Shown in pieces: positions 7,277 through 14,298 of a stretch of DNA of 62,878 nt; within the stretch, counting starts at the first letter, position 1, and every line of letters begins with the position of its first letter. The translations under genes and the position numbers were made by a program. The stretch spans positions 1 through 62,878 of the forward strand of contig NZ_QGDQ01000028.1 of the NCBI RefSeq assembly GCF_003149145.1, written 5' to 3'. The DNA comes from Quadrisphaera granulorum (GTDB lineage Bacteria; Actinomycetota; Actinomycetes; Actinomycetales; Quadrisphaeraceae). The notes beneath the pieces are model-generated. The model made no database searches, was not told where the DNA came from, and worked only from the letters and a program-made list of their open reading frames with translations.

Positions 7277-7954
7277 GTGCTTGGAGTGATCGTCATGGCC
7301 GACCCGCGCGTCGCCGCCATCCCGGTGCGGGAGTGCGGCGAGCCGCTGGTCGACACCGCCGACAGCGAGCACCTGCGCGTCGACGACCGGATGGCCGACG
7401 AGCACGGGCAATGGCGGCTGCTGCGCGCCGGAGTGGTCGAGCGCCTCGAGCGGGCCGCACAGCTGCTGCCGCCCGGGGTCAGGTTGCTCGTGCTGGAGGG
7501 GTACCGGTCGCCGCAGCGCCAGGAACGAGGCTTCACCCGGTACCGCGAGACCTTGCGGGCGCTGCGCCCCGACCTCGACGAGGGCGCGCTGCGCGCGGCG
7601 GCCAGCCGCTACATCTCACCGCCGGAGGTCGCGCCGCACCCCTCCGGCGCCGCCATCGACCTGACCCTGTGCGACGACGACGGCACCGAGCTCGACCTGG
7701 GCTGCGCCTACGACGCCACCCCCGAGGAGAGCGACGGTGGCTGCTTCACCGCTGCTCCGGGGCTGCCCGAGCGGGCTGCGGCCAACCGACGGCTCCTCGT
7801 CGAGGTGCTCACCGAAGCGGGCCTCGTGAACTACCCCACCGAGTGGTGGCACTGGTCGTACGGAGACCGGTACTGGGCGCTGAAGACCGGGGCACCCGCC
7901 GCCCTCTACGGGCCGCACGACCTCACGGCGCCTGCACAAGCAGCAGCGGTCTGA
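7277..7954 (+). CDS. M15-family D-Ala-D-Ala dipeptidase (VanX-like)
   Basis: This protein of about 225 residues is a zinc dipeptidase of the VanX/DdpX group, which cleaves D-Ala-D-Ala and related dipeptides. The zinc and catalytic motifs are present: HPSGAAIDLTL (zinc His and Asp) and EWWHW (catalytic Glu, zinc His). YRSPQRQ supplies the conserved Arg. No signal peptide is visible, so it should act in the cytoplasm. GTG at 7277 is preceded by CAGACT at the leaderless distance; an ATG 18 bases later is the alternative. There is no vanH or vanA neighbour, so a peptidoglycan recycling role is more likely than glycopeptide resistance. Its 3' end overlaps the minus-strand acetyltransferase pseudogene by about 30 bases. 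Confidence 0.85.
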   Translation: MLGVIVMADPRVAAIPVRECGEPLVDTADSEHLRVDDRMADEHGQWRLLRAGVVERLERAAQLLPPGVRLLVLEGYRSPQRQERGFTRYRETLRALRPDLDEGALRAAASRYISPPEVAPHPSGAAIDLTLCDDDGTELDLGCAYDATPEESDGGCFTAAPGLPERAAANRRLLVEVLTEAGLVNYPTEWWHWSYGDRYWALKTGAPAALYGPHDLTAPAQAAAV

Positions 7955-8707
7955 CGGCGGCCAGCGGCACGCCGTCCAGAGCGGGCTGCAGGTGGGGGTC
8001 ATCGACGTGTCCGTCAAACTCGACGTGCGCTGAAGGCCCGGCGCTGCGCTGGGCGATCTCGGCGAACGAGCGAGCCAGCGCCCGACGCAGCAGGGCCACC
8101 CCCGTCAGGTGTCCCGGAACGCCGACCGCCGTCACGTCCGGAACGACGGTCTCTGCGACCGCCTCCCATCCGTCGTCGGCGGCGAACACGAGCACGGTCG
8201 CCGCGAGACGTCCGTCCCACCACACGCCTGAGCTGCACGCACGATCGACGTCGGCCACGGTGGCAGCGGCCACTTCCGCGAGCGCACGGCGGGGCGCCCC
8301 GGGTGACACCGGTGCCCACGGGGCATGCACCCACAGGTACTGCTCCACGAAAGCGGCGGCCACCTGGTCGCTGTCGAGCGCTTCGAGGGAGTCCACGACC
8401 AGCTCCGGCGGATCCTCCGTCTGCGCTAACCCGCTGTAGACGTCCACCCACGCGAGGACCTTCGGATCAGCGGCGTCAATGACCTGCCCGGGGCACCGCT
8501 GCCGCACCCCGCCACCGGTGGCTTCGAGAAAACCCATCGCCGCGGTGTTCGACGGTCGGACCTTGCTCGCGAGCGGCAGCGGCTCCGGGCGCGCCGCGCG
8601 GACCGCCGCGAGGAGGTTCCGGCCGATTCCCCGTCGGCGGGCTCCCAGGGGCGCACGTGCACAGACACGTGGTCGTTGGCTCCGGCGGCGTCACGGGCGG
8701 CGTCCAT
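7923..8707 (-). pseudogene. GNAT acetyltransferase with a frameshift
   Basis: The gene starts at an ATG preceded by GAGAGGATGCCGCC and reads MDAARDAAGANDHVSVHVRP. Near 8617-8625 the coding frame jumps. The following sequence, NLLAAVRAARPEPLPLASKV and then RPSNTAAMGFLEATGGG, is classic GNAT and lies in another minus-strand frame that runs to the stop at 7923. The second half (VWWDGRLAATVLVF, GVALLRRALARSFAEI) also looks like an acetyltransferase domain. The intact product would be about 260 residues. One missing base explains the shift; it may be a true mutation or a sequencing error. Confidence 0.65.
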
Positions 8708-8764: not shown

Positions 8765-9910
8765 GTGATCGACGGTGTGATCAAGGAGCAGGACTGGAGG
8801 GCAGGGCGCCTCGCCCCGCGCACGGGCCTCGACGTGGCGGTCCTCGCGGTGCTACGTGCCGTCGACAGGGCGTGCACGTGGGGAACGCGCCGCCCGACCA
8901 CCGCCCCGACCACGCGGGCCGTCCGGCAGCTCACGCCCGACGGCCTCTCCCCGGACCAGGCACGCGCCCGCCTCGCAGCCCTCGGTCACCCGTGGCGCAC
9001 GCTGCACCCGCTGCTCAGGCACGACGGCAACTGGGGTTGGCGGGACGGCGACGAGCCCGCCGACGACGAGTACACGCGCGTGGGCTTGTCACCCCTGGGA
9101 CGTCTCGCGCTGCACGCGGCTGATGCTCAGTGCGGTCCGGTGCCGCTCGGTCTGGTGCTCGGCGACCTCCACCCCCGCTACCGGAAGCTGACCGAGTCGT
9201 CGTCGAAGGTGCCTGTCGCGGCGGCTGATCCGACACCAGCGCTCGGAGGTGAGGCACTCGCGATGCGCCCGGGGTTCGGACTGTCGGCAGTGCTCGACGC
9301 GCTGACGGCCGCCCGTGCCGGCGACACACGTCCGTCGCGCTTGCTGCCCGTGCCCCCGGCGCCGGCGGAGGCCGCCGTCGACGTCGACCTCCCCGCGCTC
9401 CTGGCCGGCGAGCCAGTGCGAGCGCGGCTAGGTTGCCGCTTCGACGTCGTCCCCGCGCCCGAGGTGCCGCCGGCTCCGCCGGGACCTCCGCCGGAGGTGA
9501 TCGCGGCAGCCCAGGCGCAGGGACTCACGGACTACGCGTGGGTCGCCTACGCCCCGCGCCAGTACGCGGGGCCTTCCCTGGTCGTCACCGGCACCCCGTC
9601 GGGCGTGGACCTGGGGTTGCTCGTGGACCAGCTCCTCGAGTCCGCCTTCGAGCTGAAACAGGCGCCGATGCGCATCGCCGGGATCGACGACGCGAGCACG
9701 AGCAAGGTCGGTACCCGCGTCCTTGTCCACACGGACGACCCCCACGCCGACATCGACGCGCTACGCGCGTGGGTCCAGCAGCTACCTGCCGCCACCGTCG
9801 ACGTGACCTGGCATCTGCCCGGCGGCGCCGATGCCGCGCTTCACCACTGGGCGAATCTGGTTGACGACGACGACTCAGGCCTCCAGCAGCTCGCGGCGCT
9901 CAGCGCCTGA
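8765..9910 (+). CDS. Compact GyrA/ParC-like protein, function unknown
   Basis: This 381-residue protein aligns in pieces with the breakage-reunion core of DNA gyrase A. Residues 88-103 (GNWGWRDGDEPADDEY) match the E. coli GyrA segment GNFGSIDGDSAAAMRY without gaps, placing Y103 on the catalytic tyrosine. The preceding PWRTLHPLLRHD fits PFSLRYMLVDGQ. Residues around 200 (RPGFGLSAVLDAL) recall PPHNLGEVVDAL. LVVTGTPSGVDLGLLVDQLL, followed by the IDDAS..VGTRVLV segment, recalls the GyrA stretch with VVTELPY and DES..GMRVVI. The arginine before the catalytic tyrosine is Glu here, and the long coiled coil and C-terminal pinwheel are absent, so enzyme activity is doubtful. CACACT six bases before the GTG suggests a leaderless mRNA. 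The family link is my inference. Confidence 0.6.
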   Translation: MIDGVIKEQDWRAGRLAPRTGLDVAVLAVLRAVDRACTWGTRRPTTAPTTRAVRQLTPDGLSPDQARARLAALGHPWRTLHPLLRHDGNWGWRDGDEPADDEYTRVGLSPLGRLALHAADAQCGPVPLGLVLGDLHPRYRKLTESSSKVPVAAADPTPALGGEALAMRPGFGLSAVLDALTAARAGDTRPSRLLPVPPAPAEAAVDVDLPALLAGEPVRARLGCRFDVVPAPEVPPAPPGPPPEVIAAAQAQGLTDYAWVAYAPRQYAGPSLVVTGTPSGVDLGLLVDQLLESAFELKQAPMRIAGIDDASTSKVGTRVLVHTDDPHADIDALRAWVQQLPAATVDVTWHLPGGADAALHHWANLVDDDDSGLQQLAALSA

Positions 9911-11961: not shown

Positions 11962-12675
11962 TCAGCGGCCGGCTTGCCGGCAGATGCCGTCGAGCAGCAG
12001 GTCGAGCCCGGCGACGAAGACGTCTTCGTCGTCGTGAGTGGCGAACTCGTCGACGATGTGGTGGACGAAGGGGTACTCAGCCTCGGGCAGGGCGCGCCAG
12101 TGCTCGACGGCGTCGTCGAGTCGCGACGTGTCCTCCCTGTCGAAGGTGGCCAGGTCCTGCGCGGCGCCGTCCTGCGGGTGACGGCCGAGGTCAGAGGCCA
12201 CACCGATGACGTACCCCGTGACCGCCGAGACGGCGTGGAACCGCTGACGGGCGGTGAGGTCGAGGCGCATCGCCTGCTGGCCCATGCGCTCGTAGAGGCG
12301 CAGCCCGTTGGGCTGCAGCCCTGAGTCGCGCTGGAAGTAGGCGCCCAGCCATGGCCGCGGGGCGATGACGCGATAGAACGCCACCGCCATCTCCCGCAGC
12401 GCGTCGACCGGGTCTTCGGCGGTGGTCACGCTCTCCGTGGCGGCGAGCACGTCGGTGAGCACGTGGTCGCTGGCGCGGGCGATGAGCTCGTCCTTGCTGG
12501 AGACGTACCAGTAGATGCTGCCGACGCCGCCGCCCAGCCGCGCGGCCAGCGAACGGAAGGTCAGCGCCGACTCGCCCGCCTCGTCGAGCAGCGCCACCGC
12601 ACCGGCGACGACGGCCTCCAGGGAGTGCGAGGCGCGTTGCCGGGTGCCACCTCGTGTGGTGCGTGCGTCCGCCAT
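11962..12675 (-). CDS. TetR-family repressor of the adjacent exporter
   Basis: This 237-residue regulator has an N-terminal HTH (LTFRSLAARLGGGVGSIYWY at about residues 38-57) followed by a C-terminal ligand domain of the TetR_C type with an AVTGYVIGVASD segment. It is divergent from a 14-helix drug exporter, with 105 bp between starts, and the gap carries two copies of a palindromic operator. It most likely represses both genes and releases DNA on binding a toxic compound carried by the pump. I took the ATG that begins MADARTT. The longer upstream frame would run through the operators and is rejected. Confidence 0.87.
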   Translation of the reverse strand: MADARTTRGGTRQRASHSLEAVVAGAVALLDEAGESALTFRSLAARLGGGVGSIYWYVSSKDELIARASDHVLTDVLAATESVTTAEDPVDALREMAVAFYRVIAPRPWLGAYFQRDSGLQPNGLRLYERMGQQAMRLDLTARQRFHAVSAVTGYVIGVASDLGRHPQDGAAQDLATFDREDTSRLDDAVEHWRALPEAEYPFVHHIVDEFATHDDEDVFVAGLDLLLDGICRQAGR

Positions 12676-12705
12676 GCCGACATCCCACCACATGCTTGCG
12701 CGCAA

Positions 12706-12743
12706 ACCGAACGTCGTTCTATGTTGACCGAACGCCGTTCGGT
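12706..12743. promoter_or_regulatory. Two TetR-type operators, phased by two helix turns
   Basis: ACCGAACGCCGTTCGGT (12727-12743) is a perfect 7-bp inverted repeat around a 3-bp centre. ACCGAACGTCGTTCTAT (12706-12722) is a second, imperfect copy. Their centres are 21 bp apart, so two dimers could sit on the same face of the DNA. TTGACC (12724-12729) inside this region may be a -35 box for the exporter gene. The position between tetR and the exporter gene supports an operator role. Confidence 0.75.
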
Positions 12744-12780
12744 TCGAGCGGCCGACCCCACCCTCGAGAGGAGGGACGCC

Positions 12781-14298
12781 ATGAGCTCCAGCGCGCCCAC
12801 GACAGCCCCCACCCCCCACACCACCGCTCCCACCACCACCACTGGGACGACGACGAGCGCGCGCACGTACACCTCGCTGCGCGCGGCGTGGATCCCCCTG
12901 CTCGCCCTGTGCCTAGCGTTCTTCGTGGAGATGGTCGACAACACCCTGCTGTCCATCGCCCTGCCGACCATCGGCCGCGACCTCGGCGGCAGCACCACCG
13001 CCCTGCAGTGGGTCACCGGTGCCTACTCGCTGACCTTCGGCGGGCTCCTGCTCACCGCCGGGTCGCTGGCCGACCGCCTCGGACGCCGCCGCGTACTGCT
13101 GGTCGGGCTGGCGGTCTTCGGCACCGTGAGCCTCACGGTGGTAGCCGTCACGACGACGAGCGAGCTCATCGCCCTGCGCGCGGCACTCGGCATCGCCGCC
13201 GCCGCGATGGCCCCGATCACCAACTCCCTGGTGTTCCGCCTCTTCGACGACGAGGCGCTGAGGATGCGCGCGATGACCGTGATGATCGTCGTCGGCATGA
13301 GCGGCTTCATCCTGGGCCCGCTCCTCGGCGGCACAGCGCTCGCGCACGTCAGCTGGGAGTGGCTCCTCGTGGTCAACGCCCCCGTCGCCCTGCTGGCATG
13401 GATCGGGGTGCGCCTCGGCGTGCCCGCCGACCACCGCGACGACCTCACCGACGACAGGCTCGACCTGCCCGGCGCGGTGCTATCGCTCACCACCATCGGC
13501 CTGGCCTGCTACACGCTGACCAGCGGTGTCGACCACGGATGGCTGTCACCGGCCACGATCGGGTGCGCGCTCGGCGCCGCCCTCGCACTCCTCCCGTTCG
13601 TCGCCCACGAGCGCCGGACGGCACAGCCCATGCTCGACCTGGCGCTCTTCCGCGACGGCACGGTCCGCGGCGCGTCCATCGCCCAGGTCGGCACGGCCAT
13701 CGCCATGTCCGCGGTGATGTTCGCCTTGATCCTGCACTTCCAGTACGCCTACGGCTGGAGCCCCGTCCGCGCCGGACTGGCCAACCTGCCGCTGATCATC
13801 ACGATGATCGCCGCCACGCCGATCTCGGAGAAGCTCGCGCAACGCTTCGGGCACCGCGTCGCCTGCCTCATCGGCGCCGCGCTGATGGCCGGGTCGCTCG
13901 TCGGCCTTGCGGTCTCCGTCGACCACGGCTACCCCGCCATCGCAGCCTGCATGGTGGTCATGACGGTCGGCCTGCGCACGGTGATGACCATCTGCGCGGT
14001 GGCGCTGGTGCGTGCGGCACCGGAGAACCGCACGTCGCTGGCCGCATCGCTCAACGACACCGCCCAGGAGGTCGGCTCCAGCATCGGCACCGCCGTGGTC
14101 GGCACCCTCATCGCCGTCCTCGTCACCACCGTGCTGCCCGCCGGCACATGGAGCACCGAGCTGGTCAGCGCGTTCTTCCGCGGCGAGCGGGTGGCGTTCG
14201 CCGCGCTCGCCGTCGTCGTCGGTCTGCTCGCGGGAGTCGGTGCGCTGACGCTCAGCAGCTCCCGCAGCACCGACGAGAACCCCATCCCCGCGGCATGA
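12781..14298 (+). CDS. DHA2-type MFS drug efflux transporter
   Basis: This 505-residue protein has 14 predicted membrane helices and expels drugs by proton antiport. Key features are the acidic first helix (FFVEMVDNTLLSIALPTIG), motif A in the first cytoplasmic loop (GSLADRLGRRRVLLVG) and the motif C region (GFILGPLLGG). The N-terminus is a Thr/Pro-rich tail. GAGAGGAGGGA lies just before the ATG. It stands divergent from its probable repressor. Its 3' end faces a convergent ABC transporter operon across a GC-rich hairpin. The substrate is unknown. Confidence 0.9.
   Translation: MSSSAPTTAPTPHTTAPTTTTGTTTSARTYTSLRAAWIPLLALCLAFFVEMVDNTLLSIALPTIGRDLGGSTTALQWVTGAYSLTFGGLLLTAGSLADRLGRRRVLLVGLAVFGTVSLTVVAVTTTSELIALRAALGIAAAAMAPITNSLVFRLFDDEALRMRAMTVMIVVGMSGFILGPLLGGTALAHVSWEWLLVVNAPVALLAWIGVRLGVPADHRDDLTDDRLDLPGAVLSLTTIGLACYTLTSGVDHGWLSPATIGCALGAALALLPFVAHERRTAQPMLDLALFRDGTVRGASIAQVGTAIAMSAVMFALILHFQYAYGWSPVRAGLANLPLIITMIAATPISEKLAQRFGHRVACLIGAALMAGSLVGLAVSVDHGYPAIAACMVVMTVGLRTVMTICAVALVRAAPENRTSLAASLNDTAQEVGSSIGTAVVGTLIAVLVTTVLPAGTWSTELVSAFFRGERVAFAALAVVVGLLAGVGALTLSSSRSTDENPIPAA

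Follow-up and report, generated by a model that had tools for sequence, protein, structure and literature searches.

The window, by which we mean the whole stretch of 62,878 nucleotides that was analysed, contains an open reading frame of 381 codons at positions 8765-9910 on the plus strand (GTG start, stop included). The working name mini-GyrA, or mini, is used here for the short paralogue of the GyrA/ParC core that it encodes. The gene is real, as judged from a syntenic orthologue in another genome of the same genus (G004) with 66% identity over the alignment and conserved gene order; dN/dS between the two was 0.34-0.36. Because the ATG of this orthologue falls a few residues from the window start, an alternative GTG at 8777 is possible. 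A promoter scan for the gene found none.

Along the plus strand, the winged-helix region starts with residues 19-34 (8819-8866), RTGLDVAVLAVLRAVD, which in the alignment are the counterpart of GyrA RDGLKPVHRRVLYAM; the T, G and L were retained in 10/10 family members and the K/R/R of GyrA were lost. Residues 69-121 (8969-9127) span the former active site and were matched to GyrA directly by single-sequence search. Within them lies the former active-site loop (residues 88-103, 9026-9073), GNWGWRDGDEPADDEY, with the pattern GN.G..GD.PA..xY and with E102-Y103 at the place of the catalytic Arg-Tyr. An earlier sequence-only reading of this DNA had aligned the segment with the active site of GyrA and put Y103 at the catalytic tyrosine, which both our alignment and the PDB match described below bear out. 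Residues 125-180 (9137-9304) are a shortened counterpart of GyrA 'RFPNLLVNGSxGIAVGMATNIPPHNLREVxxA', from which the loop isoleucine is absent, and residues 195-225 (9347-9439) correspond to the tower stretch 'GPDFPTGG..G..GI..AYRTGRGS...R', both by alignment and by profile-profile comparison. In the ten-member alignment a proline-rich insert of the Quadrisphaera members, of which a shorter one occurs in G442, follows at residues 227-268 (9443-9568). Alignment and profile-profile comparison placed residues 269-323 (9569-9733), VVTGTPSGV...GIDDASTSKVGTRVLVHT, opposite GyrA VVTELPYQV...ADVRDETSGKTGQRLVI as a tower segment, and confirmed the earlier observation that the later blocks LSAVLDAL, VVTGTPSGV and IDDAS..GTRVLV follow the order of GyrA. 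The C-terminal motif of the family, W......D..GL..L..L in the ten-member alignment, occupies residues 362-379 (9848-9901), where GyrA would run on into the coiled coil.

The family retains an RTGL segment that corresponds to RDGLKP, the GN.G..GD.PA loop preceding the tyrosine position, a shorter version of FPNLLVNGS...IPPHNLREV, the strand PTGG...AGR and the tower strands VVTE.P.gV...DVrDEts..G.RvvV. The N-terminal arm, the coiled coil, the C-gate, the pinwheel and the loop with the intercalating isoleucine are absent from the minis, which stop near the tower end; the profile alignment was limited to GyrA columns 19-319. We take the GyrA counterpart of VVTGTPSGV...GTRVLV to belong to the tower of the enzyme. 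The mini is, as far as its sequence predicts, a winged-helix/active-site region with a shortened tower, without coiled coil, C-gate or pinwheel. The sequence-only reading had described tower, coiled coil and pinwheel as missing; the latter two are indeed absent, and the tower is present, since VVTGTPSGV...IDDAS..VGTRVLV aligns to the GyrA tower. An AlphaFold model from a 3-sequence alignment had a mean pLDDT of 35.6, and the best Foldseek match of that model had an E of 0.22.

The genes beside the minis vary between lineages and inside genera. In the window and in G004 the neighbours are an acetyltransferase-like gene (by reading) and a GGDEF gene; elsewhere a methyltransferase gene (G005), ispG/GcpE (G510), leuA (G862) or pyruvate kinase (G864) was found, and an Lhr-type helicase adjoins the mini in G164 and, by similarity, in G099. 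No topoisomerase subunit gene was identified among the neighbours, part of which were scanned with Pfam. The acetyltransferase-like gene of the window (7923-8640, minus strand) looks broken: it matches residues 96-328 alone of the 331-aa frame in G004 (E=3e-95), and the start of the gene appears to be gone, apart from 11 residues that match in a different frame (E=0.35). At 11962-14298 a TetR-type regulator (minus strand; TetR_C_1, E=8e-12) lies beside a putative MFS efflux-type transporter (plus strand), and the transporter is kept in G004.

Distribution of the family

Ten members of 299-381 aa were found, all in Actinomycetota: four in Quadrisphaera (the window genome included) and two, three and one in three other genera. 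All ten reading frames are uninterrupted, and 45 columns of their alignment are invariant over the four genera, the C-terminal motif among them. A genus-level search found the gene in four of six Quadrisphaera genomes (window, G004, G003 and G005) and not in G001 and G002. At the level of the order, a profile made from the four Quadrisphaera members alone gave a match in 7 of 248 genomes, namely the four Quadrisphaera ones, G099 and G164 from one other genus, and G049, the match of which was judged by its 873-aa frame to be a full-length A subunit. At the level of the class, a six-member profile gave a match in 139 of 394 genomes, with minis in the window genome, G510 and G442; the remaining matches extend as far as the former active site, lie mostly in frames above 750 aa and were read as GyrA/ParC. 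For seven GyrA-type matches of this search the frame was 308-586 aa long: three (L041, L049 and L058) survived the filter for full length, one (L039) is a normal GyrA truncated by the contig end, and those in G294, G304 and G323 stood outside the full-length check. In the orders to which G442 and G510 belong, 1 of 293 and 3 of 166 genomes were matched, the latter adding G862 and G864, and at the level of the phylum one of 296 genomes was matched, the window itself. The large genome searches scored 5-12 candidates per genome; family-profile searches covered Actinomycetota, and a wider contig scan used two Quadrisphaera peptide patterns only.

Phages and plasmids were searched with the window protein, the phages also with L074 and the plasmids also with L025 and L074. 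The window protein had no match in either. Partial matches alone, with less than 60% identity, were obtained for L074 in phages and for L025 and L074 in plasmids, and we therefore rejected the idea that the mini is phage or plasmid cargo. Nothing of the mini family was found in the viral contigs searched. Of eleven plasmid matches, five are annotated as gyrA or parC; the other six, as well as six matched pieces of Listeria phages (3.6-11 kb), are unannotated at the match and were taken by us to be GyrA/ParC. The three minis of genus g147 (L063, L074 and L075) lie at three chromosomal sites, beside ispG, leuA and pyruvate kinase, a difference hinting at gene movement.

Relationship to GyrA and ParC

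The window protein alone gave E=8.3e-4 and 18.8 bits against Pfam PF00521 (cut-off 31) and E=1.1e-3 against GyrA in the PDB, and the single-sequence search found the active-site stretch alone, marginally. Because these matches are weak, the earlier claim of a GyrA core needed relatives, and with them it was borne out by homology. A profile of eight members matched PDB GyrA 3ilw, which we take to be that of M. tuberculosis, at E=2.3e-19 in two stretches, and 2nov, the PDB molecule name of which is ParC55, in one continuous stretch (profile 8-295 against chain 34-318). When all ten members were compared with 13 GyrA/ParC sequences, profile against profile, as the sequence-only reading had proposed, GyrA/ParC was found at 99.1% and E=1.1e-18 over GyrA columns 19-319, and the collinear match starts at the 'RDGLKP' helix, crosses the active-site loop and takes in the tower strands. 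The ten-member profile scored 126.6, whereas the highest of 60 column-shuffled controls reached 23.1 and the reversed profile 13.7; the four Quadrisphaera members alone reached 66%, E=5.6e-5 and a score of 43.5, against at most 24.1 in 60 shuffles. A chance match was rejected by the E-values and the shuffled controls.

Taken by itself, the G164 protein clears the PF00521 cut-off (35.7 vs 31 bits) and matches GyrA in the PDB at 1.5e-13; G099 and G862 stay below the cut-off. At E<=0.01, PF00521 matched 8/10 members and NCBIfam NF004044 matched 9/10 (best E=1.3e-16), the latter far below the model cut-offs in the six members with scores listed. Among the PHROGs, phrog_551 (DNA topoisomerase II) matched six members and a nameless family matched one (E=0.0027); apart from this weak match, no family kind other than topoisomerase appeared in the ten-member scans. 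PADLOC matched none of the ten minis, and a known defence gene was rejected on this ground. None of the curated models scanned (Pfam, NCBIfam, PHROGs, PADLOC) names the mini family. No description of a mini-GyrA-like protein was found in the open-access literature searched, passages of PMC9348778, PMC9825172 and PMC7897471 included.

The alignment with GyrA/ParC held 59 sequences, ten minis and 49 full-length loci (L039 was dropped by the length filter); its stretch from the RTGL helix to the active-site loop is gappy, and single columns there depend on the alignment. In a tree of 40 of these 59 sequences, for which long branches meeting and an odd letter make-up in six minis were flagged, a branch supported at 100/100 separates the minis from 18 GyrA-labelled and 12 ParC-like rows, labelled by motif. 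The tree places the minis together without fixing their attachment point.

A PF00521 search of 13 genomes, the ten hosts included, found at least one full-length A subunit in every genome and two in 11 of them. Two full-length A subunits are present in eight of the ten hosts, one being intein-split in the window genome; the G164 host has one, and the G864 host has one and two partial matches. The split gene of the window genome (G000:C26:25001-31000, L106, minus strand) encodes a ParC-like A subunit with an in-frame intein-like insert of ~420 aa, which starts CVTANTRV, ends FVNHN and follows directly after the catalytic Tyr. At this site the gene is uninterrupted in the five other Quadrisphaera genomes.

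A gyrA fragment or frameshift debris was also rejected as the origin of the mini, since a comparable short gene, uninterrupted and with the common C-terminal motif, recurs in ten genomes and since each host has at least one full-length A subunit. We concluded from sequence comparison that the mini is almost certainly a genuine, though highly divergent, paralogue of the A subunit of type IIA topoisomerases (GyrA/ParC). The minis would thus belong to GyrA/ParC by descent and not by function, and may be placed near the topoisomerases.

Catalytic and basic residues

The catalytic Arg-Tyr pair reads E-Y, E-F, E-H, A-H, R-Y, R-Y, E-F, D-Y, A-Y and Q-Y in the ten members, the window member being E-Y. 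Arg is kept in 2/10 and Tyr in 6/10 (Phe in two, His in two), and the closely related G099 and G164 kept both. The replacement of Arg by Glu, which the sequence-only reading had pointed out and wished to see surveyed, holds for the window (E102) and not for the family, in which Glu stands at the Arg position in 4/10 members (E,E,E,A,R,R,E,D,A,Q). H78 and H80, which we take to be the active-site His pair (HPHGD), and I174, presumably the intercalating Ile, were each retained in 0/10. With Arg lost in 8/10, both His in 10/10 and Tyr in 4/10, the earlier description of a non-cleaving protein is probably right, and we hold it likely, from these replacements, that the mini does not cleave DNA.

A similar loss was seen for the basic residues of GyrA that we counted as DNA-touching (E. 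coli-style numbering set by Y122). K42, R46, R47 and K65 were each retained in 0/10 and R91 in 1/10, with R38 as the exception (9/10); D87 was retained in 0/10. Among 117 columns that are invariant in the 49 full-length proteins, the 22 K/R/H columns were kept in 18% of the mini cells, compared with 37.5% for the 60 G/P/N/L/V/I/W columns. A hand count over columns 38-124 gave 23/130 cells kept for 13 invariant K/R/H and 106/180 for 18 G/P/N/L/V/I. The net charge of the winged-helix part was -4 to -12 in the six non-Quadrisphaera minis, and -3 to +2 in the four Quadrisphaera minis and six full-length proteins; the whole-protein pI of the minis was 4.7-5.9.

These residues bear on the possibility that the mini is a DNA-binding protein, either a transcription factor or a nucleoid protein, which re-uses the GyrA winged helix without cutting. 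The winged-helix region is kept, and in the window member it is slightly basic (net +2), which speaks for this explanation. Against it stand the loss of K42, R46, R47, K65, H78 and H80 in all members and of R91 in all but one, the acidic winged helix of the six non-Quadrisphaera minis and the low pI, and we regard it as unlikely. DNA binding in the manner of GyrA, as the sequence-only reading had suggested, is disfavoured by the same residues and by the same acidic winged-helix part. The overall pattern suggests a small extra GyrA relative that has turned regulator or decoy.

Proposed role and comparison with known systems

As the best explanation overall we tentatively propose that the mini is a dead pseudo-topoisomerase which contacts and modulates the host gyrase or topoisomerase IV. 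We consider an accessory pseudoenzyme acting by protein contact because positions of the fold have outlasted the basic and catalytic ones, the minis appear to share a one-clade origin, the genes are under constraint, and their sites are patchy and varying. Catalytically dead, and neither binding nor cutting DNA as GyrA does, the mini would offer its DNA-gate/tower-like surface to proteins. It may contact gyrase or topoisomerase IV on the TOPRIM side of GyrB/ParE or at the GyrA/ParC half of the DNA gate, and such a contact would damp or protect the host enzyme, with the mini as an accessory protein that is of use under some conditions. The most economical partner would be the parent enzyme, be it gyrase or topoisomerase IV. 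In GyrA the N-terminal arm contacts GyrB; because this arm is absent, the mini would bind GyrB differently, if at all. That the mini acts by modulating host topoisomerases, a role of the kind suggested in the sequence-only reading for gyrase, is possible but uncertain, and the specific picture of a DNA-blind, GyrA/ParC-derived 'half gate' which controls or shields gyrase or topoisomerase IV by binding to it is rather doubtful.

A different partner might be encoded by a small nucleotidyltransferase-like (NTase-like) reading frame (VGGTAR...DLDV...VDT..GPLDVF) that overlaps the mini start by 4 bases in G099, G164 and G862 and of which a 43-codon remnant is found at the mini in G864. The frames are 99-113 aa as cut (L030:7353-7649, L029:7094-7390 and L074:1180-1518, the last on the minus strand; motif VGGTAR..DLDV..PLDVF), and the G862 copy matched a PHROG nucleotidyltransferase at E=6e-4. 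In a toxin-antitoxin- or defence-like module the mini could be a regulator or target mimic of this upstream gene, and the finding that strong NTase matches (E<1e-40, 16 genomes) occurred in 3/10 mini genomes, beside the mini, and in 0/6 others is consistent with this. However, the conserved adjacent NTase of an AbiE-like toxin-antitoxin system is present beside three of ten minis, with one remnant, and not beside the window gene. The other six minis have no upstream NTase (frame reading in the window, G003, G005, G510 and G442; motif search in G004) and no strong match in their genomes. For the two NTase copies scanned, there was no Pfam match above cut-off and, as for the ten minis, none in PADLOC. 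We judge such a module improbable.

About equally improbable is a paralogue in decay, which is turning into a pseudogene and has no present function. dN/dS was 0.34-0.46 in five pairs of minis, which exceeds the ratio of 14 out of 15 neighbouring gene pairs (0.07-0.43), and constraint is therefore moderate; this fast evolution, the loss of catalysis and the sporadic presence would all fit decay. Yet in each of the five pairs the ratio stays far from 1, by which the minis are shown to be under purifying selection, and both the ten uninterrupted frames and the 45 columns invariant over four genera, with the C-terminal motif among them, argue against it.

The mini might instead, as the sequence-only reading had also suggested, protect gyrase from inhibitors, as a decoy DNA gate that binds or dislodges quinolone-like or natural-product inhibitors. 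It derives from the drug target itself, its distribution is patchy with chromosomal sites differing within a genus, and the window has the TetR-type regulator and the putative MFS-type transporter 2-4 kb downstream of the mini, with the transporter present in G004 too. But the helix HPHGD...YD, which with D87 we take to form the quinolone contacts, is rewritten, D87 being kept in no member, and next to minis from other genera the transporter pair was not observed, so that we find this role hard to credit. Least probable is a minimal subunit still cleaving DNA with the host GyrB/ParE in at least some members, for which the Arg-Tyr within 'ADARYT.VRLSP' of G099 and G164 could speak, since both active-site His and the intercalating Ile are gone in 10/10, Tyr is Phe or His in four and the second dimer gate is absent.

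Type IIA topoisomerases are essential drug targets. A free-standing paralogue which, like the proposed dead pseudo-topoisomerase, preserved the scaffold sequence but shed catalysis and most of the DNA contacts would be a pseudoenzyme in this family, and no such pseudoenzyme was found described in the open-access literature searched. If the mini touches gyrase or topoisomerase IV, it would offer a naturally occurring probe for those surfaces by which the DNA gate is controlled, and if it were a half gate, it would stand for a class of regulators built from the enzyme's own scaffold. For annotation, mini genes may be taken for gyrA fragments or stay nameless.

Compared with GyrA/ParC (PF00521; NF004044, TIGR01063), the mini is collinear from the RDGLKP helix to the tower strands, but at 299-381 aa, compared with about 820-900, it lacks the N-terminal arm, coiled coil, C-gate and pinwheel, its catalytic and basic residues are eroded, and it is extra to the host's own A subunits. 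The breakage-reunion fragments GyrA59 and ParC55, which are laboratory constructs, resemble it as A subunits without the pinwheel. These constructs retain the catalytic residues, the coiled coil and the C-gate, whereas the mini is shorter still and natural. GyrA59 appears in PMC7897471. GyrA-like sequences are described in PMC9348778 from Bacillus and Lactococcus phages and from human-associated virus contigs; the phage and viral-contig searches made here did not turn up the mini family. With the pentapeptide-repeat modulators Qnr/MfpA the mini would share the proposed outcome, a non-enzymatic modulation of gyrase. It has no pentapeptide repeats (no such Pfam match for the window protein at E<=1 or for the ten members at E<=0.01) and, unlike Qnr/MfpA, the mini is homologous to gyrase itself.
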